The notes below the pieces were generated by a model. The model saw nothing but the letters and a program-made list of their open reading frames with translations, did no database searches and was not told the origin of the DNA. DNA of 64,000 nucleotides from Effrenium voratum (lineage: Eukaryota > Sar > Dinophyceae > Suessiales > Symbiodiniaceae): NCBI GenBank assembly GCA_963377175.1, contig CAUJNA010001513.1:704548-768547 (forward strand). The letters are read 5' to 3'. Made by a program: the position numbers and the translations under genes. Shown piece after piece: positions 43,056 through 62,530 of this stretch; position 1 is the first letter of the stretch; each line of letters begins with the position of its first letter.

Positions 43056-43091
43056 ATACTTGGATTGGCTGTTTTTTTATAGAGAGTTATG
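43056..43091. repeat. Left terminal inverted repeat of the transposon
   Basis: Begins ATACTTGGATTGGCTG and ends TAGAGAGTTATG. The strictly safe part starts at GATTGGCTG (43,063), because the first bases may be array sequence (compare ACATACTTTCG at 42,993-43,003). Confidence 0.8.
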
Positions 43092-43400
43092 TTAGTTATG
43101 TAGAATTAAGATTCATAATATAACAAGTTAACTAGACTTATCGCAATTCGTTCTAACTAGTTATAACTATTTATCTGGCTTTTGATTTCACATACTTTTC
43201 GTTGTAGGATGTATTGTGTATTTAAGGCGTGTAAAGATTTTTGTGGATCCCACAAATGCTTCACAAGCCAAAAATTCACTTCCAGCTTTGTGTTTCAGAA
43301 AGGAAAGCTCATGTTCAAACCCGCATGGGATAGCCAATTGGCTGCGCATGCAATGGGAACAGCCCGAAGGCTTCATGCAGCAAGGACTGGACTGCAACAG

Positions 43401-45373
43401 CTATAAGGAGGCTCTACGAAACTTGACAAACTGGAACAGCCTTAAAGGCCTCCGAGAATGGTGGGGCTCTTTTTTATTGGTCAAGCAGCAGAGTACAGTT
43501 GGCATGGCAGCAAGACTTTGGCTTCGCCTTGGCCTCGCAAGTGGGCAAATGATTGTCGAAGCTGGAATCAACCCTTGGAGTGCCGAGACCCGGCATGTGG
43601 CATGCTGCTGGTCCAACTTTTTCACGTGGTCCCAGACCTGGACCATGGTCGCTTTCTCTTGCAAGAGCTCCACATGGAACAGCACCTGGGCCACTTGCCA
43701 GCTTTGGCTGGTTCCATAAGCGACCACATCGCCTCCATGGACCTGGGCACCATGGGCCAAGCGAAGGCAGCTGGCTAGCTTTGCCGACTGCAGCTGGCCT
43801 TGGACAAACTGGGCCAACATCGCCAGCTCTTTGGGCGTAGCTGGCCTGGACTTCAAGAAAACGACAGTTTCTGGAAACAGGCCTGGCTCTTGAAGGGTGG
43901 CTATCTCCTTGGCCAGGACTTGTTGGAGCAAGTTGGTCTCGAAGTCCTTGGTGTTCTGGAGCTTGGTGGCTAAGCCGCCAATGCCCTTGTGCTTCCTTTC
44001 TGGAGCGAAGCAATTGGGCAGGTGGCCAAGCCGCTCCAGGATGTCAGGCATATGGAGGAGCCAATGCCACTTGGGTATCAGTTTCCCCAAACCCGGCAGC
44101 TTGGTACGACTGGATGGCTTCCTCGCATGCCTGGAGCAAGCTGCTTCTGGTTGTAGCTCCACTTTGGGCTCCTCCGTGGATCTGGTCGATGAGAGTGGCC
44201 ATGGCCAGCTGAGCCTCTGGTTGTTCTTGTGCTTTTGGACTTGCTTTTGGCTGAAGATGGCCTCCAAGTTGCCAGCTCTGGTGGCTTTTGGCTGCTTCCA
44301 GTGTGGGAAAGCTTGGCGAAGAAACTCCCACACCTGGAAGCCTTCTGTCTGGAAAGCCTCCAGGGTGTGGTACACCACAACTGGTGCCACTCCTTGGAGG
44401 ACTCCGTGCATATAATCGTGACAAAATTGGCTCACTGGTCGTATTACTTCTCTGGCTCTCAAGGTGGGGTGCAGCAACAAGGCAAATTTGGACCAGGTGA
44501 GTCCTGTGGCCTGCTGCCAAATCTGGAAGTCTTTCTTGGAGCAGGTGGCCCTCCTGGCATCCAGTCTCTGGTAGCTGTCAAGGAGCTCCTGGTCTGTCAC
44601 AAGCCTCAACTGGTCGTACCTTGTGGTGCTGGTGTACTGGCCCTCCTGGTCCTCGTGATCTTTGGCTGCGAAGCTGCGGACGTTGGCACAAAGGGCAACC
44701 ACACCTGCTTGTGGGCCTGGGCGGCGTTGCCGCTTGGGTCCTTAAGCAAGAACCCACCCAGTGGCTCCACCAATGGGTCCAAAAAGATGGACTCCAGGAC
44801 CAGTTGGGAAACCCCTGCGTCCAAAGTGGCCACCACACTGGATCTGCAGACGCACATAGTGAGCCAGAGGTCCTCGTGGCAAAGCTGGTGCTTGAAGTCG
44901 TCCATGGTGGCATACAGTGCCCAGCACTTGCGTTCTGCCCTTCCTAGCACACTGCCTGGTATGATTTCATCTGCATACAAAGTCAATCCCCATGGCCGCT
45001 CTGGGCTGGATGGGCATTTCTGGTGCTTGGACAGAAGCAGCTCGTGGAAACTGCCTTGTTGGTGGAAGAGCTGGCTCAGGTTGACCAGGAAGCTGCAGTG
45101 TGGAACCCTTACCTGGTTTCCATCTGCTTTGGTCAAGGTGCCTTCCCTGATCAATGGGCCCAAGGCTCCACCATGGAAGCTGGCCAGCAGTTGCTGTCTC
45201 GCTTCTCTTGGCTTCGAGCTGGAAACTTCTGGCAACCCATGGGCTTCAATTTCTTTAACAATGGCTTCGAGGAGAGCTTGGGAATGCGCAGGTAGTCTGC
45301 TTTGGAATTTGAGCAGTCTGCTCAATTTGGCTCTCTTGGTGGTCGGCTGGGCCACGTCATGGCTGGAGCTCAT
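43401..45373 (-). CDS. DDE-like transposase, split by one frame change
   Basis: Two abutting minus-strand frames make one protein of about 650 residues. The first part starts at ATG 45373 (MSSSHDVAQPTTKRAKLSRL) and includes LTLYADEIIPGS. The second runs to 43,401 and includes FCHDYMHGVLQG, PKWHWLLHMPD and CFAPERKHKGIGG. The acidic residues of DE-I-I-P-G, D of HDYMHG and E of PERKHK are placed as expected for a D-D-E triad. Similar motifs occur, from memory, in abundant dinoflagellate transposase-like proteins. The frames meet at about 44,705-44,712, where CAGGTGTGG would read through as CAGGTGG, consistent with a 2-bp GT duplication. The C-terminal 70 residues look degraded. The protein would cut and paste the surrounding element. 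Confidence 0.7.
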
Positions 45374-45439
45374 GGTCCAGTGGAGAAAGCTGGTTATCTG
45401 GAAACATGCAAGGCTGGACTGTGCAGCACACATTCAAGT

Positions 45440-45850
45440 TTGTTTTGGCTTTACAATATTTTGAATCTTTATGGTGCATATGCCATGAAACGTTGAAGCA
45501 TCGATGTGTACTTTCGTTTGCAAGCTTAAGGCTCAAGCTTAAGGCTCGGAACGAATTTTGTAGCTGATAATTGTATAAAGCTATTGCTATAAAGGGTTTA
45601 GCCACTTGCAGCTGGTGGGTGCACGTGCCGCATATGGGCATGCTAAAGTCCACGGGTCGGTCGATTGGACATACTGGGATTACCCAGCAAAAGCCAAGCA
45701 TGCAACATGGGACTGCCATCGCAGGCACGACAATCAGAATCCAAGCATGGCACTGCCACTACAGGCACGGCAACGAAGACCATGGGCAATCAGCTTGAGT
45801 CTTTTTTACTACTGCATGGCTCTGGTCCCCAGCATGCATTGTGCTTGGCA
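45440..45850. other. Spacer between the Lys-rich CxxC protein and the transposase
   Basis: Carries two imperfect copies of a GGCACTGCCA-type word about 36 bp apart (45,708-45,775) and a doubled AAGCTTAAGGCTC near 45,520-45,548. No exon was seen. Confidence 0.4.
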
Positions 45851-47289
45851 TCACTTTCTGGCTGCCATGTGGGCTCTCCACCGTTCACGCCCATGGAGTC
45901 TCACTCCTTGGTACGTGGGCGACCTACACGTGCGACATCCTTTGACGTTCCCACGACAGCGCGGGCAGCCGTAGAGAAGAGCCCCAGCCTGGCCTTTGGC
46001 CTTCTTCTTGGCAGTGGCTTTGGCCTTTGGCTTCGGTCCAGGCTTACCCTTGGCTTTCGCCTTGGGTGTCGGCTTGGCCTTGCCTTTAGCTTTGGCCTTG
46101 GCTTGGATCTTTGGCTTGGGCTTGGTCTGGGTGTCAGCCGGCTCAGCTGGCTCTCGCCTTTTCCCCTTCCTCTTCTTCAACTGGTTGAAAGTCTGGCGTC
46201 GAGGGGGCTTCTCTCCACCTCGCTGGCAGCAGGCTGGGCTCCTCCAGTGGTTGCCTCTGTGGCTGGCTGAGTGGCAGCCTTCGCTGACACTGTAGCTGAA
46301 GAAGCAGCTTGGTCAGCCGACTGGTGCCCTGCAGAACCTTCAGGGTTTTCGAAAGGCAGTGCCTGGCCAGACCCGCGGGTGGAGAAGGGAAAAGCCAGCT
46401 GCTGCCCTGCGCTGGCCTGGCTCGCAAACTTCTGGTCGGGAGGCTGCAGGAAATGGATCTGCGGCTGCTCGGGCCGAAGCACTTGGGCGAAACGGCCCAG
46501 CAGCCCGTTCAGCAGGAGGTTTACATCCGCAGCGCCTACGTCAGCTTGGACAGCTTTAGCTTGGGCCTGTGGTGTCGCAACTGGTCGTGCTTCCTGGTGG
46601 AGGAGCTTGTTGTTGCCGCGCATGGCAACTTTCTTCATCCAGTGGGACAGCTCTGGTGAGCGTCCAGCTGGTCCTTCACCAGGGTAAGCCCTCTGCAAGA
46701 AGGATGGGTCCAGCTGCGTTGGGTCGTTGGGGTACGAACTCAGTCCTTGGCTGGCTTGGCTGGGCTTCGAAAATGCTGCGAAAATCAACCACCAAAGCAT
46801 GGATGGCGTGGGCGCTCATCTCGGGACTGCCTTTGGCATGGCTCTGCTGGACAACCAAGGCCACCGCTTGGTGAATCGTTCCTTCCTTCATTCAGGCTTC
46901 GGAGCCCGAGCTGGGCCAGCCTTTTGGCTACCACTGCCAACTGGCTGGTCGCCTTGGGTGGTTGCTTGGGCCAGCTGGTTCCAATCTTCCTGTGTGAGGT
47001 AGGCTGGAAGGTTGGCCATTCTCTGGCCCGCGACAACGAGCTTGTGGCCAGTGGTGTGGTTGCTGTGGCACTGCTCCACAGTGGCTGTCAGCTTGGCCTT
47101 GAAGGCGTCTGGCAGACTGCTCTGGTCGATCTTCTCGAGCATGGCCACGATGGCCTCTGTGCTCCAATGCTGGAAAGCTTGGAGCTTCTGGGCCAAGGAG
47201 TCACACATGGTTGCCACGATCTGGGCACCAGGCTTCAAAGTGGCAAGCTTCTCTAGATGGTCGACCTCAGCGACCCAGTGCTGGGCCAT
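45851..47289 (-). CDS. Lys/Ala-rich protein with CxxC pair, several frame changes
   Basis: Starts at ATG 47289 (MAQHWVAEVDHLEKLA) with a helical region (VATMCDSLAQKLQAFQHW, SLPDAFKAKLTATVEQC). It continues in other frames: IHQAVALVVQQSHAKG; SYPNDPTQLDPSFLQRAYPG; DVNLLLNGLLGRFAQVLRPE; and QTFNQLKKRKGKRREPAEP. A KAKAKGKAKPTPKAKAKGK tail comes before YGCPRCRGNVKGCRTCRSP, GVRLHGRERW and the stop at 45851. The CPRC-x5-CRTC pattern fits a small zinc-binding module. Frame changes fall near 46,890, 46,750 and 46,210. From memory, similar Lys-rich CxxC tails are frequent in dinoflagellate repeat proteins. It could be the DNA-binding or accessory subunit of the transposon, as an inference from context. 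Confidence 0.55.
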
Positions 47290-48200
47290 CGTGGACAGCC
47301 ACTTCTGGGCTCACGCACCCTGGTGGGCTTCTGGACCAGCCAAAATAGCTATATGTGAGATCGCACGCTTGGCATGGACGCCTCATTCTCAAGTCTCTAC
47401 TACTACAACATTTTACTATATTTATGAAAACAAGCATAACGTACAATGTGACTACTTCTGTTAGATTTCATTTAGAAGCACATATACAAAAAATCAACAT
47501 ATTAAAGGAGACACATCCACAAATATATCGCACAGCCTCGTGGGCTTCATGCACTGAAAGAAGTGGTACAGCCACGATGGGCTCTGCAAATTTTTCACAA
47601 TTGCTGCAAGAAGCTCTTTTTTAATACTCTCGCAGCCTGGCGGGTCATGGGTCATGGTAGCCCCTGAAGAGGTTGCGGAAATGGGGCTCGCCGGTGTACC
47701 TGGGCGACAAGTGGTGAAGTTTTGAGTGGCTTGAGATGGAGCCTCGTTCGTGGCTGGGGAAAGAGCCCCATGCATGTGGGTGCACAATTATAGAGCCCCT
47801 TGTGGCTCCGGCTGTGGTGGAGCCCACTGTGGCTGTAGTTATATGGCCTAGATGGCTGTGGTATTAAAATGAGAGAAACGTGGGGGATATAGGTGTATTC
47901 GAATTATAAAGCTGACACCCGAAACTTTAAACACTAAGGTTTTAAACCATGTACCAAGCAAACCTTAAGCCCATGGACCCTCAACCCTCAAACACCAAAA
48001 TACTCAACCCCAACTCTAAAACTGTGTTTGCGGCTTCGCCAGTATCAAATCTACAATTCATGCCGTTAGGTGGGACAGCCATGGTGGCTCTGTGGACAGA
48101 AAATGGCACAGCCATGATGGCTCCAATGCAGAAGAAATGGTACAGCCAAGTGGCTCCAATGCTTGCCAAGGTGCCAGCGAAGGAGATCCTGGCACCTGGT
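47290..48200. other. Spacer with palindromic-motif copies
   Basis: Non-coding between two element genes. It has ACAGCCA...GGCTC motif copies near 47,532, 47,568, 48,073, 48,109 and 48,144, plus reverse-orientation copies at 47,788-47,836 (GAGCCCACTGTGGCTGTA). Confidence 0.5.
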
Positions 48201-49433
48201 CCAATCCTGGGCTTGGTACCCAGCAGAACCACTCCACTTTGTTCTTCCAGGTTGGCTTCCCATCGGCACCCTGGGCGTCCTGGTGCTGCATCTGCTGGAG
48301 ATATTGCTCGCACAGCTGGGTGCAGCGGTCCCACTGGGACCTTTGGTAGGCCGCCAGAAGCTGCATTGCCTTGAGCTTCTGGTGGTACTCTGGCTGCAAA
48401 TAGAGGCGGGCGCTCCGTAGGCTTGGCCTTGGCTGGTGAAACGGGTCTGGCTTTGGCTGCTGCCTTTGGTGGGGTTACTGGTGCGGCCGAAGCTTGGGGT
48501 TGTGTCTGGAGGAGTGGCACATGTGGCGCCCTCGGCTGCGGAACCCGTGCTGGCACTGGCTGGCTGGCGGCAGGGGACTTGGAAGTAAGTCCCTGTAGTG
48601 GCTTCTCCACCTTGGTCTCCGCTGGCTCGGCCTTGGGCAGAGGCTGCTGGTGTAGGTGGCTGGGGGCTGCTGCCCCTGGCTTGGCCACTTGCTGGATCGG
48701 CATGGACGGATGACCTTGGCTGGGGTGCTGGAATGGCTGTGGAGGAGCCATGCCTGCCTGGCCGAAGAACTGCGGCAGCTGTGGCGCACTGGTGGTGGGA
48801 TCATGTGGGGGCATGGTGGTAGTATGGGCTGGATTCCACCAGCAGGATGGACCATTGGAAGTGGTGGGAAGGGTTGGGTAGCAAGAAAGGCATGGCCTGC
48901 ATAGCTGGAAGTGGTTGCTGGAAATGGAATTGGATTGGAGGCTGGGCATGTGATGGGTGAAATAGGAAAGGCTGGGCCGGCTGGGGCAAGGTCGGCTGGG
49001 GCTTGGCTGTTTGTTGCGGTGGTGGCTGCATCCTCGCCTTCTTGGTTGGAGCTCGGCTGGGCAGGCTTGGCTCCTGCTCTGGCTGGGCTTGGGCTTGGAG
49101 AAGCCTGGCCAGGGTTTCCTCATCCTGGAGCCTGGTCATGATCTCGTACGCGCCAGATTGCTGGTCCTCCCTGCGCATCTGGTCTAGCTCGATGGCTTGG
49201 GCTTCCCTGGGCCAGCTGGGCATTGGTGGATGGCTGATGTCTTCTGGCTGGGACGCGGAGGCTTGGGGGTGCTGACTGGTGGCTGCTGCGGCTTGGCCGC
49301 CGGCATGTAGCGGGCACTCCTGGCCATCCACGTGGGTCGCCACGGAACCTGGCGACAACTCGCCAGAAATATGAGAAAATATGGTGCGGTTGGAGTCAGA
49401 TTTGGCCGACTCCGACTTGGCGTCGATATCCAT
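48200..49433 (-). CDS. Pro/Gln-rich protein of the transposon, frame-shifted
   Basis: Starts MDIDAKSESAKSDSN at 49433. An acidic/Gln helix follows (REAQAIELDQMRREDQQ, EIMTRLQDEETLARLLQAQ), then a long Pro/Gln/His region (FLFHPSHAQPPIQFHFQQ, QVAKPGAAAPSHLHQQPLP). After a frame change near 48,400 it ends in a helical part (QPEYHQKLKAMQLLAAYQ, DRCTQLCEQYLQQMQHQD, WKNKVEWF). A further frame change lies near 48,850. The composition resembles a disordered linker or scaffold; no family was recognised. It probably belongs with the CxxC protein downstream in the same transcription unit. Confidence 0.5.
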
Positions 49434-49494
49434 GGCTCGGTCTCGACGCTGAGTGCTACTTGATTTGAGATGTTGTTAGGTCCTTTTATTTTTA

Positions 49495-49690
49495 TTAATG
49501 CCTCCTAATTCTAAACTCAGCTGCTGGTTTTAATCCAGGGACTTTGGAATTTAAATTCAGCGGCTGAATTTAATATGTTTTTGATTTTTAATTCAGCTGC
49601 TGAATTTAATTCATATATATTGGATTTTAAATTCAGCTGCTGAATTTAATTTATGGACATTATATTTTAAATAAGCTGTGTTGAATCTAC
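49495..49690. promoter_or_regulatory. Palindromic AATTCAGCTGCTGAATT repeats upstream of the Pro/Gln-rich gene
   Basis: Three good copies of AAATTCAGCNGCTGAATTT, centred near 49,563, 49,603 and 49,642, and degenerate copies near 49,518 and 49,680, are spaced about 38-45 bp. They sit 60-260 bp upstream of the ATG at 49433. Each is a perfect or near-perfect dyad around CAGCTG. They may be binding sites for an element-encoded or host protein; no function is shown. Confidence 0.55.
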
Positions 49691-50600
49691 GTTGCGTGGT
49701 GTTGATGTTAAACTCACCCTCTGCTGTTTAATGTGAAGACGTTAATTCCAACGAGATATCTGATATTTTTCCTCGGATTAGTCTGCAGTTGTCATTGCAG
49801 CATGTGCATTGAGATTCGTGTGGAACAGAAAATATAGGCTAATTTGTGTCATTGGAGACTTGACTGTTCTTGTGCCTACTTCGATTGCGACTAGAATTCT
49901 TGTGTACATTTGATGGAGGACAGCTTGAGCCTTGGACGTGAAACCCTGAACTTTCTAAACCCTAAAGACCCTTAACCGTAAACGCCCTGATCCTTGACAA
50001 TACTGCAACCTAACCTCGCTGCTGCCTAGAAAGCCCTAAACATCCAGAACCCTATACACGAAACCCCTACTTGAACAGCCACACATGGGCTCCATACTGG
50101 CACAGCATTACATCCCTGTGGAACAGCCACACATGGGCTCCCATGCAGAACGAAAATGAAGCTGTGTTGGACCTTTTCTTTTGTTCAAATATGTTTCCAA
50201 AAACATCTAGGTCTCGGGGATCCATGGTGACACTCCGAATGTAATGCTCAAGGACAGGGCCCCTGTGGTTGATGATGCTATTGGTGAATCTGGCTCAAGT
50301 ATATGTGCCTGCCCTGCCATCTGCCCCAGAGGATGTCGAAATGATATGTTATGTCTGGAGCCGAGAAATCTAGGTACCAGGCTCCTCACTGTCAGCCACT
50401 GGAGTGGGCTCGGTTTGGCCAGAAATGGACTCGGTTGTCGTGACTGTGATTGTTGGTGGCGGCTTGGAGGGAGGGGTGCTCATGGGAGCCATGGTCAGGA
50501 TCCTTGGTAATCCATGGAAGGCGTGGCAGCGTGTGTGCCATGTCTACGGTCTGGGAAAATGTAAACCAAGAGCGCAATAGCCGCCAGCTTGCGCATGATT
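49690..50600. other. Spacer inside the transposon
   Basis: Non-coding. It contains the string CCCTGAACTTTCTAAACCCT-like C/A-rich lines near 49,945-50,070 and motif copies near 50,075 and 50,121. Confidence 0.4.
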
Positions 50601-50620
50601 GATAGCTCAAGGAGTTGGGA

Positions 50621-51448
50621 CGAATGTATGATTTTGGTGCTGGGAAGCACCGTCGCAATGTTCCAATGTAATGCAAAAAAAATGTAGTTCTGCGACATGG
50701 TACAGCCACATTTTGGGCTCACTGCAACATGAAAACTTGCTTCTTGGTACAGCCACATGTTGGGCTCGACGGCCTCTGGGAACAAAGCATGGAACAAGAC
50801 AACTGGAACAGCCACTAGCACTCTGCAAGCATGCAAACGTTTTTTTCCATCCATCATAAAAACATAGCTCCTCCTGGCTGCTTGCGTGGGCTCCTATGGG
50901 CTCATGGCTTTTGGGAGATGCAATCCTTTGGGGAAGCTCCCGAACCATGGTGCCTGGCATTTCTGGCAAACACGGTAGTGGCTGGCCTTCCTCAAATAAA
51001 TGGAGGATGGGCACCCTTTGGTCTGGCATCGGATCTGCCAGCGCCAGGTCCTGGAAATGGCCCGTCATGGTGTCCTGGCTCATGGCTGGCTTCTTGTTGG
51101 GGGCCTCGCCGACGCTGGGCTTCTTCTGGGCCCTGTGGCTGGCAACCTTCATGGCGGCCTTGGTCTTGGGAGCCATGGCTGTATCTGGAGGAGAGCCAGG
51201 TGGGATTGCTTGAGCACTTGGGTCGCAAAGTGAAAACATGCAGCATGGTGGTTCGATTGGATGGTAGCATGATGGGTCAGCCTACACTGTGGCTCTGGAG
51301 GACAAATCTGCTTCCTGGAACAGCCACATGGGCTCACTGCGTTGAATTTCTTCCTAGAACAGCCACCATGGGCTCACTGCATGGAACAGCCATCGAGGCT
51401 CTGCAGACAGGAAGAATGGAACAGCCACTGGGGCTCTGCAGCGCACAT
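50621..51448. repeat. Direct duplication, copy 1 (about 830 bp)
   Basis: Runs from AATGTATGATTTTGGTGCTG to the TGGAACAGCC.ACTGGGG block and matches 51,917-52,778 almost base for base, apart from small indels. Minus-strand frame MAPKTKAAMKVASHRAQKK starts at ATG 51176 in this copy. Confidence 0.8.
50900..51176 (-). CDS. Small Lys-rich protein, copy 1
   Basis: From ATG 51176: MAPKTKAAMKV, QKKPSVGEAPNKKPAMSQDT, MTGHFQDLALADPMPDQRV and PILHLFEEGQPLP. After this the frame runs on through repeat-rich DNA and is less convincing. The basic Lys/Ala/Met N-terminus is typical of dinoflagellate basic proteins by recollection. The upstream AGATACAG|CC could be a splice acceptor, so the ATG may be internal. 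Copy 2 starts at 52487. Confidence 0.35.
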
Positions 51449-51535
51449 GCGTGGGCTCAGCAAAAAAATGTTTTCCGTCAGACAAGCTTCTCTTCCGATC
51501 TGGCCACTCTGGGCCTCTACACCAACTGGAGTCCG

Positions 51536-51781
51536 TCAGGGAACATGTCCCACCAAGCCGCCCCACACATGCAGCACCGACGGATTTCGCGGCGCGAAGA
51601 AAAATCGGACTCCGGCAGCCCTTGGTCGCGCATGTGATCTTCCAGTGGTCGACGACTGGTGCTGCTCCATCCTGGCTGCAACTGGCTTCTTCAAGGGCTT
51701 GGCCTTGGCCTTGGTGGCAGTATTCATTGCCTTGAGGGGGGCATGGGCGTGGGCCTTCATCACCTTGTTCTGGGAGCCCAT
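51536..51781 (-). CDS. Small Lys-rich protein between the duplicated blocks
   Basis: From ATG 51781: MGSQNKVMKAHAHAPLKAMN, TKAKAKPLKKPVAARMEQHQ and SSTTGRSH. The frame then continues into lower-quality sequence (FFFAPRNPSV). The composition parallels MAPKTKAAMKV of the neighbours. Upstream in-frame sequence (SPNTLSSVVSASQLQRSSD) may also be exon, so the start is not certain. Confidence 0.3.
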   Translation of the reverse strand: MGSQNKVMKAHAHAPLKAMNTATKAKAKPLKKPVAARMEQHQSSTTGRSHARPRAAGVRFFFAPRNPSVLHVWGGLVGHVP

Positions 51782-51916
51782 GGCTTGCGATTGGTCTGGC
51801 ACCGAAGCGGGGAGGGGATCGCTGGAACGCTGCAGCTGGGACGCGGACACAACTGAGGAAAGTGTGTTGGGCGAACCTGGGGATGCTAGTGCTGGGACAG
51901 CCACGGAAAGTTCCAC

Positions 51917-52778
51917 GAAATGTATGATTTTGGTGCTGGGAAGCACCGTCGCAATGTTCCAATGTAATACAAAAAAAAGTAGTTCTGCGACATGGTACAG
52001 CCACATTTTGGGCTCACTGCAACATGAAAACTGGCTTCTTGGTACAGCCACATGTTGGGCTCGACGGCCTCTGGGAACAAAGCATGGAACAAGACAACTG
52101 GAACAGCCACTAGGGCTCTGCAAGCATGCAAACGTTTTTTTCCATCCATCATAAAAACATAGCTTCTCCTGGCTGCTTGCATGGGCTCCTATGGGCTCAT
52201 GGCTTTTGGGAGATGCAATCCTTTGGGGAAGCTCCCGAACCATGGCGCCTCGCATTTCTGGCAAACATGGTGGTGGCTGGCCTTCCTCAAATAAATGCAG
52301 AGGATGGGCACCCTTTGGTCTGGCATCGGATCTGCCAGTGCCAGAGGACGTCTGGAGCGTCCTGGAAATGGCCCGTCATGGTGTCCTGGCTCATGGCTGG
52401 CTTCTTCTTGGGGGCCTCGCCGACGCTGGGCTTCTTCTGGACCTTGTGGCTGGCAACCTTCATGGCGGCCTTGGTCTTGGGAGCCATGGCTGTATCTGGA
52501 GGAGAGCCAGGTGGGATTGCTTGAGCACTTGGGTCGCAAAGTGAAAAACATGCAGCATGGTGGTCGTTTGGATGGTAGCATGATGGGTCAGCCTATACAC
52601 TGTGGCTCTGGAGGACAAATCTGCTTCCTGGAGCAGCCACATGGGCTCACTGCATGGAATTGCTTCCTAGAACAGCCGCCATGGGCTCATTGCATGCAAC
52701 TGCACACTTTCACTGGAACAGCCATCGAGGCTCTGCAGACACGACGAATGGAACAGCTACTGGGTCTCTGCAGCGCGG
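51917..52778. repeat. Direct duplication, copy 2
   Basis: Second copy of the 50,621-51,448 block, offset by 1,296-1,330 bp. It differs by a 14-15-bp insertion (GAGGACGTCTGG near 52,343-52,356) and scattered substitutions. Confidence 0.8.
52287..52487 (-). CDS. Small Lys-rich protein, copy 2, frame-changed
   Basis: From ATG 52487: MAPKTKAAMKVASHKVQKK, SVGEAPKKKPAMSQDTM and TGHFQD. An insertion relative to copy 1 then shifts the frame (DVLWHWQIRCQ). In copy 1 the same point reads LALADPMPDQRV. This is probably a broken duplicate. Confidence 0.35.
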   Translation of the reverse strand: MAPKTKAAMKVASHKVQKKPSVGEAPKKKPAMSQDTMTGHFQDAPDVLWHWQIRCQTKGCPSSAFI

Positions 52779-52893
52779 AAACTGAGATGCAACACGATTG
52801 ATTTTTGTCCGAAAACTCCTTGAGCATCGTCTGCTGTGTCGGTGATTGCATGCCATGTGGCATGCTCTGGATCATGATGGACTCCCAGATGGC

Positions 52894-55067
52894 TCAGCTG
52901 GTTTTCTTCTTCTTGGCTTGGTGCTGGGAAGAAGAGCTCGCGCATGGTTCCTCGGTGCTGTAAAGCAATTGGTCGTGGACGGCAACATGGTGGCTATTGG
53001 TCAAGCACGGGATGCGGATCCCGTCCTCCAGCACATAGCTGTGCACCAGGTTGGCTTCCTCGGCCTTGGCTGCTGGCTTGGCCCACCAATATGGGACAAG
53101 GCACCCTGGGTCCTCGCCCTGGAAAGATGTGTTCTGTCGCCAGCTGGTGATGACCCAATGACTTCCAGCATGCTGGATTGCAAGTTTGGGGGGCGCACCT
53201 GGCCCCTTGTGCTTGGCGACCTGCCCCAATGGGATAAGCTTGATGGCGTTCTTTTTCTTGGCTTTGAGGCTGAACAGGCCTTGTGGACTGTGGACGAAAG
53301 CCACGTCCTCATGGTCCACCTCATGATTGGCAATGGCCGAATGCAAGGCCATGGCAACTTTCGATTTCTGGAGCTCGTCCTGGATCATCCTTTGCAAGCT
53401 CCGGCGGGCAAACCTTGGTCTGGGCGACTTTGGCTGGTCTCCATTTCCTCAAACGCTCCAGTGGCACTTGGACAGATTCGTCCGCCTGGAAGATAGGCTG
53501 GTGCCTCATCGTCGCGTGGGAGTCGTCCATGGACTCCAGCACGAACACCTTGGGACCATGGTCTGCGGAGTTGGTGTACCTGGGCAGGCTAGTATATCGC
53601 TGTACGTAAACCCGAAAAGATCTGTGTCTATATATATATATATATGTCCGCACTTATATTGCTGCGAGCAAGCTGCATATTGCCCAACTCCATGCGGTTA
53701 TTCTGCAACAAGGCTATTGCCTTTGGGCTGGCATCCAGCACGCTGGTGACTCCCTGGCTGCTGGCAGGCTCTGGCTTCTTCGCCTGGGCTGCAGTCCCTG
53801 CAGAATCTTGGATCTCGTTGGTGAAAGCTTGGAGGATTTCTTCCAAGCTGGCCCACTGCTTGGCCTCCCTTCCCTGCTTCTGCTTGGAGCAGAGGAAGAG
53901 GGTGGTTCGCACTGCCATCCGGCCGAAAGCTTTCTGGAGCACAGCTTCTGGCCTGGCCTTCATGGCCTTCATCTGCTGCTGCACTCTCCAAGCGTCCTGA
54001 AGCATGGCTTCTGCCTGCTGGACTGCAGGCAGCATCTGGCTCGTTTTCAGTCGCTGGATGTCTGACTGGGTCAAGATCTTGGCAAAGCCATCCTGCGACT
54101 TTGGGGACGTGAGCATGGTAGCCCACAGACTGATGCGTATCATTGGATAGATCTGTGTGGCCACACGGAAGTCCAAAGTGGAAAGCAGTTGCATGGTCTC
54201 TGTGCCAATCTGCAAACTGGCATTGAAGGATTTGGAGAAGCCATTCAAAAAGTGTAAAAATGGAAAGCCTGGCGACCCGCCTCCAAACTTCTGCACAAAC
54301 ATGGCAATGCTGGGGATAGATCTTTGGCAGCTGGTGCTGGCCTGGCTTACCTTCCCGATCGCCTGCTGCATGGTGAGGCCTTGGTCGAAAGCTGTGGCCA
54401 GCTGGAGTGCTACCTCCAGCTCGTTGGCTTGCTTCATGATGGCATTGGTGCTGTTCATGGCAAGCTCGATGAAGGATGGCAGGTGTGGCATGGCCTCCTC
54501 CACCTGGGCCGAGATGACGCACCACGTCCAGCCTTTCTGGATCGTCTCCTGCGTGGGGTCCTTATCCTTCTGCACTATGGCGTGGGTACCCTCTGGCCCC
54601 TCGATGCCGTGCTGGAGGCATCGCAGGAAGGCGATGGTGTGGCTGGCCGACAGGGTGAGGAAACCTGGCAGGCAAGAATATACTTATATTTTACGTTTGG
54701 CACGACGTGGGTGTTCATATACATGTGGGAATGACAGAAAACTTGATGAAAGTCGAGTGGCCCTCTTGGCCAGTCAGTGGTGCTAAGTGGCCGTTGGAGT
54801 TGCTCACCAGCTCCTGGTTGGCGGCCAGCTGGGCACCACGCTTCTCCTCCTGGGTGGCGAGCTGGCAGCATATGGTCGTGCCGTCCAGAATGGATCGCTT
54901 GAAGCCTAGCATCCTTTCTGCCAGCAATCATGGTACCCCACCATGCCCCCACCTCTGTTAGCCGGGTGGCACAGAAGTTGGGATGGCAGCAACACCTGGT
55001 CGTGGGCCAAGCCATGGGCTCGGAGAAGCTGGAGCACGGCCTCCACTTTGTTGTTAAACCCGAGACC
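52894..55067 (-). CDS. Large unknown transposon protein, several exons
   Basis: Exon-like parts are: 55067-54943 (NNKVEAVLQLLRAHGLAHDQ); about 54942-54741 (LAERMLGFKRSILDGTTI, QEEKRGAQLAANQELV); about 54680-53660 (LSASHTIAFLRCLQHGIEG, QKGWTWCVISAQVEEAMPHL, SFNASLQIGTETMQLLSTLD and SDIQRLKTSQMLPAVQQAEA); and 53579-52894 (KVFVLESMDDSHATMRHQP, MIQDELQKSKVAMALHSA, VPYWWAKPAAKAEEANLVHS, ending KKKKTS). Two short introns end TGCCAGG and TGCCCAGG and contain TATATA. Frame changes lie near 54,945 and 53,403. No known domain was recognised; the protein is mainly helical. It is probably continuous with the 180-codon frame upstream through a GC-AG intron. Confidence 0.6.
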
Positions 55068-55192
55068 CTAAAAACGTGATACAACTGGGCGCTGCATGGA
55101 ACAGCCAGACGGGGCTCGGAAGCACACGACTGCACGCGATGCATTTTTCTTCTGGGAGCAGCCGCTGCAGTCTATAGAGTCTGGCATGGTGT

Positions 55193-55735
55193 TCATGCCT
55201 TTGTTTTCTTCACATATGGTCGCTTGCTTTGCTGGGTGGCCTGGGCCGAGTCCTCTCGCAAGTGGATGATGACAGCCTCCAGTTGGGTGGCTTCCAGCTC
55301 GACAGCCAGGTCGGTGCTTCTCGGCCTGCGTCCATGGATCAACACTTCCACTGGGGTGGAACCTACCTGGATGGTGACCACTTCTGGCATGGCGATGCGG
55401 GATGCTTTCCTCTTCTTGGGTGGCGTCGATGGATTTGCAGGGCCATCGTCGAACAGCTGGGCCTGCTCTCCATCGTCTGGCGCGCCTGGGTCGCGCACGT
55501 GGTCCAACTGATGGTTTCTGGCCTGGACCAGTTCCCGCAGGCTAGAGCTGGCATGGATGCTGCTGTTCCTGGCCACCCTGCCTCCTGTCATGAGCTGGAT
55601 TATGGATTGACAGGTTGCCTTCACCCGCAAGTAAGACTTGCCATTGGTGGGCCCTACCAAAATGTAGTCATTGGGTATGGTGACTGCTCGCTCGTCTCGG
55701 TATTGGAGCACCACCTTCTGGCTTATGGTAACCAT
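55193..55735 (-). CDS. 180-aa first protein or exon of the transposon
   Basis: Starts at ATG 55735 (MVTISQKVVLQYRDERAVTI) and continues NDYILVGPTNGKSYLRVKAT, CQSIIQLMTGGRVARNSS and HVRDPGAPDDGEQAQLFDDG. A basic PPKKRKASRI stretch could act as a nuclear localisation signal. MPEVVTIQVGSTPVEVLIHG and KRPYVKKTKA follow before TGA. Family unknown. It is uninterrupted and well coding. Because AAG|GCATGA at its end is a possible GC donor in phase with TTTTAG|GGT at 55,068, it may be exon 1 of the large protein that follows. Confidence 0.6.
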   Translation of the reverse strand: MVTISQKVVLQYRDERAVTIPNDYILVGPTNGKSYLRVKATCQSIIQLMTGGRVARNSSIHASSSLRELVQARNHQLDHVRDPGAPDDGEQAQLFDDGPANPSTPPKKRKASRIAMPEVVTIQVGSTPVEVLIHGRRPRSTDLAVELEATQLEAVIIHLREDSAQATQQSKRPYVKKTKA

Positions 55736-56159
55736 GGCTGGCCTGTGCCTTCAGTGGGGCTGTGAGTTGCAGGGGCTTGCTTCTGGTCCCTGGCAGCAAA
55801 ATATGCAATGCAAGATGGAAACAAAGCCTGGGACAGCCACATGGCTCCACATGCTGTCTTGGTGAAGAATGGAAAATGCTTATTATCGATCATTTCGTTT
55901 TCAATTTTCATCCTTCGTGGCTAAAAAACAAAAAAGGATCAATACATTTCGGCTATGCCTATGACTCCTTTCTGGCACTGGAAGAAAACATTATAATCAT
56001 TTTGTAGAATAGCAGGACGACTTTCCATCCAAAAAGAGAAATCGTGTGGGCAGAATAAAAAAGTGTTACATCCCGAACAGAAATTCGTTTTTGTTTCAGC
56101 TTGGGCTACATATACATTCACCTTGAACACAAGTGTTGCCCTGGTGTATTTTTTTTATT

Positions 56160-56395
56160 ATTTGTTTACACAAAAAATATAACTAGTTAGCGAAAGTGTT
56201 TATCTTATACCGAGTTAGCTAAAAAACTATTCTTTTTATTTACTCCTTTTAATCCTGTGTATATTTTATGCATACTTATATATTGTTGTCACTTACATGT
56301 AACTTGTTAACACATACTTATATTCCTTTATTAACTGCTTATGATGTTCAGATAACACCATAACTCTCTATAAAAAAAACAGCCAATCTAAGTAT
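56160..56395. repeat. Right terminal inverted repeat and subterminal words
   Basis: The inverted repeat itself is 56,359-56,395. Inside it, AACTTGTTAA (56,301) and ATAACTAGTTAG (56,179) correspond to TAACAAGTTA (43,121) and CTAACTAGTTATA (43,153) near the left end. The region is AT-rich and non-coding. Confidence 0.7.
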
Positions 56396-59590: not shown

Positions 59591-59663
59591 CACAGAAGGT
59601 TTGGCAGAAGGACGCAATGTCCAAATTATTTCGACATTGCGTCCTTCTGCCAAACTTTCTGCG
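59591..59663. repeat. Long hairpin: perfect 23-bp stem, 11-nt loop
   Basis: GTTTGGCAGAAGGACGCAAT plus GTC (59,599-59,621) is exactly complementary to 59,633-59,655. Allowing two mismatches, the arms extend to 59,591 and 59,663. The loop is CAAATTATTTC. It could be a cruciform, a small-RNA precursor or the remnant of a miniature inverted-repeat element. Confidence 0.85.
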
Positions 59664-61690: not shown

Positions 61691-62216
61691 GCGTGCGTGC
61701 GTGCGTGCATGCGTGCGGGAATGTTCCACGCACGGGCGTGTTCGTGTTCGTGTTCGTGTTGGTGTTGGTGTTGGTGTTGGTGTTGGTGTTGGTGTTGGTG
61801 TTCGTGTGCGTGTGCGTGGGTGTGCGTGTGCGTGTGTGCGCGTGTGCGCGTGTGTGCGTGTGTGCGTGTGTGCGTGTGTGCGTGTGCGCGTGTGCGCGTG
61901 TGCGCGTGTGCGCGTGTGCGCGTGTGCGCGTGTGCGCGTGTGGGCGTGTGTGCGTGTGTGCGTGTGTGCGTGTGTGCGTGTGTGCGTGTGTGCGTGTGTG
62001 CGTGTGTGCGTGTGTGCGTGTGTGCGTGTGTGCGTGTGTGCGTGTGTGCGTGTGTGCGTGTGTGCGTGTGTGCGTGTGTGCGTGTGTGCGTGCGTGCGTT
62101 GCGTGCGTGCGTGCGTGTGTGCGTGTGTGCGTGTGTGCGTGTGTGCGTGTGTGCGTGTGTGCATGTGTGTGTGTTGTGTGTTGTGTGTGTGTGTGTGTGT
62201 GTTGGTGTGTGTGTGT

Positions 62217-62270
<54 letters not shown>

Positions 62271-62530
62271 TGTGTGTGTGTGTGCGTGTGCGTGTGCGTG
62301 TGTTTGTTTGTGTTTGTGTTTGTGTTTGTGTTTGTGTTTTTGTTTGTGTTTGTGTTTGTGTGTGTGTGTGTCTGTGTCTGTGTCTGTGTCTGTGTCTGTG
62401 TCTGTGTCTGTCTGTGTGTCTGTGTCTGTGTCTGTGTCTGTGTCTGTGTCTGTGTCTGTGCGGGTGCCGGTGCGCTTGCGGGTACGCGTGCGCATGCGTG
62501 CGCATGCGTGCGCGTGCGCGCGTGCTGGTT
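61690..62530. repeat. 0.8-kb GT-rich simple-sequence tract
   Basis: The plus strand goes from TTCGTG and TTGGTG hexamers to GTGTGC, then pure GT (62,219-62,280), TTTGTG and CTGTGT hexamers and finally a GCGC-rich end. All six frames are open for 300-400 codons and translate to Cys/Val or His/Thr repeats, so no coding is claimed. Alternating GT/GC is a Z-DNA former. Confidence 0.95.

Follow-up and report, generated by a model that had tools for sequence, protein, structure and literature searches.

The antibody genes of vertebrates are rearranged by RAG1, an enzyme that derives from a transposase. Transposons of the RAG1/Transib type leave 5-bp target-site duplications (TSDs), with CACWATG-like ends in the case of Transib; among other systems, Polintons encode an rve integrase together with polymerase B and Starships a tyrosine recombinase, and their TSDs are again different. 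In this work, we describe an element in the genome of the dinoflagellate Effrenium voratum, an alga whose family includes coral symbionts; the element spans positions 43059-56392 of a stretch of 64,000 nucleotides (C1513:704548-768547, hereafter the window). Based on the observation of shared ends, 2-bp duplications, multiple insertions, a constant gene order, a catalytic signature, the predicted fold of a relative of its transposase and near-identical copies in one family, we regard the element as very probably a class II (cut-and-paste) DNA transposon from a new Symbiodiniaceae lineage, the named lineages of the CMCT clade having been compared by description.

According to the available sections of PMC12730594, CMCT transposases are D-D-E enzymes with C(2)C and H(3-4)H motifs between the second Asp and the Glu, and the corresponding elements have TSDs of 2-5 bp and termini that are mostly 5'-CA..TG-3'. 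The same sections describe EnSpm with CAC..GTG termini and a 3-bp TSD, PlavakaA with TGT..ACA and PlavakaB with CATCA..TGATG termini, the ESTA elements of rust fungi with a TA TSD, the CMCT motifs and a TET/JBP dioxygenase as accessory gene, and KDZ (Zisupton) with an 8-bp TSD (PMC12730594). As far as their main text was available, neither a dinoflagellate genomics review (PMC11453091) nor a 15-genome comparison (PMC8045281) contains the terms "CACTA" or "EnSpm". The available part of another study reports a match between an anemone-symbiont transcriptome and a red-alga EnSpm (PMC6505742); it concerns the anemone transcriptome, and we rejected it as a record of this element. No description of the element was found in the literature searched (most subscription journals and Repbase lie outside this coverage), and the group of multi-gene transposons presented here is apparently undescribed.

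Such a lineage would offer a natural non-animal comparison for how RAG1-type enzymes gain partner proteins, together with partner genes to test, in a diverse algal group where gene families are linked to a RAG1-like transposase and near-identical copies coexist in one genome. Some of the genes and repeats that lack annotation in Symbiodiniaceae genomes may also be explained by it, and an active family could provide a tool for use in organisms where transformation is difficult.

Ends, target sites and copies of the element

A preliminary description of the window, made from its sequence, had placed the element at 43056-56395, between matching inverted ends that split a GC-rich array. The ends are real: when aligned, they are identical at 33 of 34 nt (with one G/A mismatch and one indel in the T-run), and two pairs of inverted arms can be recognised, at 43056-43078/56373-56395 (23 nt, 96%) and at 43072-43091/56359-56378 (20 nt, 100%). 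The array (GGCGCAGCACTTTCGCA...) stops before the element and picks up again behind its right end (families D1/D4). The bounds, however, were 3 bp too wide on each side, and we reset the span because the same terminal base begins or finishes the copies at other genomic sites; the sequence ATACTT was rejected as part of the inverted repeat, since these copies show it to be a TSD plus a chance match. The left terminal inverted repeat (43059-43091), 5'-CTTGGATTGGCTG(T7)ATAGAGAGTTATG, is preceded by a TA duplication (43057-43058), and its start CTTGGATTGGCTG is identical in 5/5 left ends (window, C908, C2001, C3284 and C1868). The right terminal inverted repeat (56359-56392), ...CATAACTCTCTAT(A8)CAGCCAATCTAAG-3', delimited from the aligned ends and from the copies elsewhere, is followed by the second TA (56393-56394), and its terminus is CCAATCTAAG in three of four copies and CCAATCTAG in C3284. 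Within the window, the left-end 29-mer has no match other than itself when up to 3 mismatches are allowed (0 expected from 100 shuffles); the pattern, being ungapped, misses the right end, whose T-run has one letter more.

In the assembly searched (1,155,904,702 bases in 3,699 contigs), the ends are also present at further loci whose flanks are unrelated, as the preliminary description had proposed to check. Full-query-length matches were obtained at five places for the left end and at four for the right end (the window being counted in both), and the blast alignments halt at the ends despite ~1 kb of flank in the query. The two-ended copies of the window's family (F1) are the window itself, C908 (~19.6 kb, including a nested 4.9-kb insert) and C3284 (~12.1 kb), and the single-ended ones in the stretches compared are C2001 and C1868 (left end) and C2623 (right end). 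C908 and C2001 were counted as one insertion, since they are 99.7% identical, flank included. No solo short derivatives occur among the end matches (end queries of 121-221 bp).

When two related families of the same genome (F2 and F6) are added, the TSDs match in six of seven two-ended copies, as TA in four (window, C908, F2-C81 and F6-C1347) and as CA in two (C3284 and F6-C1113). The remaining copy, F2-C413, has the non-matching pair CA/TA and looks rearranged, because its right flank is common with C81 and its left flank is not. In C3284, removing 2 bp brings the host (CACACGCG)n repeat into phase at 24/24 positions, compared with 22/24 for 0, 4 or 8 bp and fewer for the remaining lengths; this is the closest approach to an empty site, no empty allele having been found for the window's own insertion, at which no search was aimed. 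The dinucleotides preceding the one-ended left termini include, besides TA and CA, TT (C1868 and C640), CG (C990), TG (C3305) and CT (C616), so that YA is at most a preference. Plain duplications that include the flanks do exist (C908/C2001 and the right side of C413/C81), as would be expected if a non-mobile host gene cluster had been spread through segmental duplication; yet the remaining copies have their breakpoint at one and the same terminal base, and they show differing flanks and 2-bp duplications; this already disfavoured explanation retains hardly any credibility.

The insert nested in the C908 copy is a second mobile-looking element (~4.9 kb, C908:17972-22915, with ~1-kb inverted ends that are ~99% alike), which we set aside as distinct from F1; C2001 carries the same insert, and its alignment stops at the insert's far end. 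In the window, tandem A/T-rich palindromic units (AATTCAGCTGCTGAATT, 49508-49690) adjoin the point where C908 has its nested element. The left flank of an F5 copy on C2024, TTTCGTGGCAGGCGCAGTA, resembles the GC-rich array around the window element, so that arrays of this kind may have been the target of two families.

Gene content and its conservation

The minus-strand ORFs (open reading frames) reported inside the element are present, and they can be arranged into five genes on this strand, in the order g1, H, g3, g4 and T. Gene g1 (55193-55735) encodes a 180-aa protein and has a homolog at the same place in F2 (35%, E 1e-27), and H (52894-55067) encodes a mostly helical protein of ~500-600 aa in several exons, delineated with its E. 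voratum homologs (P0013-P0015, with 465, 335 and 492 aa). Gene g3 (48061-49433), recognised from its ORFs and an F2 match, comprises a Pro/Gln-rich protein (48801-49433) and the ORF 48061-48474, which is similar to an F2 ORF over 52 aa (42%, E 2e-9); we infer that both form one gene. Gene g4 (45851-47310) has a helical N-terminal part and a Lys-rich CxxC C-terminal part, which had been listed as separate proteins; both ORFs exist, but the F2 homolog is a single ORF of 656 codons. The transposase gene T (43401-45433) is discussed in the next section. The closest protein matches are E. voratum proteins (80% for the transposase and 87-95% for the helical protein), and the contigs of P0001 (transposase match) and P0014 (helical-protein match) have the same size, 29,599 bp, which suggests that T and H are linked in a published E. 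voratum assembly too.

F1 and F2 have all five genes in identical order, with identities of 38-48% for T (two main pieces), 32-65% for g4 and 39-62% for H by piece, 42% over ~52 aa for g3 and 35% for g1. Between F1 and F6 the order is also kept (T 27-34%, g4 26-53%, H 25-48% by piece), and homologs of g1 and g3 were not found in F6; among the families read, H and g4 are present in three (F1, F2 and F6) and g1 and g3 in two (F1 and F2). The earlier supposition that the accessory proteins belong to the element is borne out by their position between such ends in F2 (five genes) and F6 (three). The mobile element is thus supported, but the accessory genes are a conserved module, and "cargo" is for this reason an unsuitable term.

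The same association is seen genome-wide, in a scoring of the best 65 of 452 candidates for T, the best 87 of 345 for H and 146 of 151 for the Lys-rich gene, so that the counts for T and H are lower bounds. H is found within 30 kb of 35 of the 65 T loci (34 times upstream on the same strand and once on the opposite strand), and 39 of them have the Lys-rich gene no more than 8 kb away, always upstream on the same strand; with uniform placement, the numbers expected are 0.19 and 0.05, respectively. Altogether, 57/65 T loci have H and/or the Lys-rich gene within 30 kb. Among the matches listed, 8/65 T, 12/56 H and 11/59 Lys-rich loci are without a partner, which is no proof of independence. The CTTRG ends around gene loci were established for the individually named copies. 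A protein search with the 180-aa g1 ORF gave no match, though this genome does contain a homolog, in F2; the Pfam, Rfam and PDB sequence searches returned no family above cut-off, and the structure model of H (pLDDT 44) was too poor for a fold search.

Repeat analysis of the interval 50620-52740 (minus strand) revealed a 1.3-kb direct duplication (blocks 93-98% alike) and many AGCC/GGCT hairpins. The motif AGCC(N3-8)GGCTGT occurs 22 times on the gene strand between 43359 and 55846, once on the opposite strand and once in the rest of the window (0.2 in shuffles); TCC or ACC follows in 14 of the 22, and many of the hairpins lie outside the conserved coding pieces. F6 has 78 AGCC(N3-8)GGCT hairpins against 3.7 in shuffles, and F2 shows no excess (2 against 2.7). 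It is our guess that the hairpins serve the processing of a multi-gene transcript.

The transposase and its relatives

The D-D-E-like layout first noticed in the window is found as D, D and E in the intact relatives, but the window copy is without the second Asp. As ORFs, protein matches and the comparison with C908 indicate, its T gene lacks ~77 bp that are found in C908 (around 44697-44716), so that the DGAA segment with the second catalytic Asp is gone, and the remainder is spread over several frames. An active transposase therefore cannot come from the window copy alone, which would either have decayed after insertion or have been moved in trans. Single long transposase frames occur in F2-C81 (707 codons) and F6-C990 (675 codons). 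The intact relatives also carry CxxC and HxxxH (P0005 has an Arg replacing one Cys), and the distance from the second Asp to the Cys is 19 in 5/5 relatives measured, likewise the spacing of D708 and C727 in RAG1, as given in the available part of PMC4914335. In the structure-based search that the preliminary description had proposed, carried out with the predicted structure of a relative, ranks 1-34 are RAG1, BbRAGL and HzTransib, and the predicted structure has an RNase-H core with a RAG1-like helical insertion. We regard the transposase as one of the RAG1/Transib/CMCT type, with a D-D-E RNase-H core, zinc-type C(2)C and H(3)H motifs and a large helical insertion.

A tblastn search with the relative P0003 gave at least 92 matches at no fewer than 65 loci. 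In the comparison of T-side ends, made over seven families (F1, F2 and F4-F8, with F3, on C2524, outside), six begin with CTTRGA and one with CTGGGA: CTTGGA in F2, F5 and F7, CTTAGA in F4 and F6, and CTGGGA in F8 (2-3 copies each), the starts of F2 and F4 being placed by analogy, as their two copies also share the preceding 1 and 3 bases. The right ends are ..CYAAG in F1, F2 and F6. The F2-C81 element (315480-331232) measures 15,753 bp, and its inverted ends read CTTGGAATCCTCGCTG. There are 11 matches of the F6 end, each within ~3.1 kb of a match to T or to the Lys-rich gene; ten of these ends reach the terminal base and C1443 is without the first 89. Three F6 copies with different flanks have an identity of 99.8-99.95% on the T side, over 1.9-2.1 kb; for the main blocks on the H side the figure is 98.9-99.4%.

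A Pfam search with 10 F1 ORFs, six transposase relatives and 10 F2/F6 ORFs gave, at most, weak and unrelated matches below cut-off, including a sub-threshold polymerase-family match of one transposase (E 0.06). An integrated DNA virus (Polinton-like or other), with its hallmark genes diverged or lost, would agree with the inverted ends, with several genes in one orientation and with the size, which is 12-16 kb when the nested insert is not counted; nevertheless, we find it highly improbable, given that no capsid, polymerase or ATPase rises above the cut-off in these ORFs, that the ends are short, the TSD has 2 bp and the predicted fold is RAG1-like, that none of the 27 pattern matches of a viral_contigs scan was confirmed by tblastn, and that a phage tblastn with the transposase queries gave no match.

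Taking the element as a cut-and-paste transposon, a mechanism can be proposed from its anatomy and from the RAG/Transib enzymes. The CTTRG ends, together with the A/T-rich region next to them, would be bound by the transposase, probably aided by accessory proteins; it would cut the element out and join it to a target staggered by 2 bp, mostly at YA, so that TA or CA is duplicated. This putative scheme includes the chemistry, the movement as one unit and what each accessory protein does.

Outside the element, the window contains a 34-nt inverted repeat with a 1-nt spacer (59593-59661, 94%) and a long CGTGTT/GTGTGC-type simple repeat (61737-62460).

Comparison with described systems

Despite the similarity in fold, the identity to RAG1, BbRAGL (ProtoRAG) and Transib is 7-10% in the structural alignments (ranks 1-34), the H pair is spaced 5 in the RAG1 type and 4 here, and the second Asp and the Glu are 254 residues apart there and 286-288 here. 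The 2-bp TSD and the CTTRG, CT..AG termini differ from the 5-bp TSD and CACWATG-like ends of the Transib type and, unlike in RAG1/RAG2 systems, no RAG2-like protein was recognised, several unrelated accessory genes being present instead. Polintons and Starships are similar in exceeding 10 kb and carrying several genes, and differ in their enzymes and TSDs.

Regarding the CMCT clade, C(2)C and H(3-4)H lie between the second Asp and the Glu and the TSD has 2 bp in 6/7 two-ended copies, as described for the clade, whereas the termini are not CA..TG but 5'-CTTRG in six of seven families and CTGGG in F8. KDZ was rejected because the TSD has 2 bp rather than 8. EnSpm/CACTA and Plavaka elements are alike in these motifs and in a short TSD (PMC12730594, available sections), and differ in their termini (CAC..GTG, with a 3-bp TSD, for the former, and TGT..ACA or CATCA..TGATG for PlavakaA and PlavakaB). 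It is conceivable, though rather unlikely, that the element is a divergent member of a named CMCT lineage (EnSpm/CACTA, Plavaka, ESTA, Lanisha or Transib) that acquired genes: the C(2)C and H(3-4)H motifs and a TSD of 2-5 bp are common to these lineages (PMC12730594, available sections), ESTA has TA TSDs and the fold of the relative matches both RAG1 and Transib. Against this, the CT..AG termini fit none of CA..TG, CAC..GTG, TGT..ACA and CATCA..TGATG, the Pfam matches are weak, unrelated and below cut-off, and the extra genes are kept between distant families (pieces 25-65% identical), which argues for their being old parts of the element. The new lineage which we favour resembles ESTA, by description, in its CMCT motifs and the presence of an accessory gene beside the transposase, and differs from it in that no TET/JBP dioxygenase was recognised here by Pfam; of the six copies with matching duplications, four have TA, as in ESTA, and two have CA.
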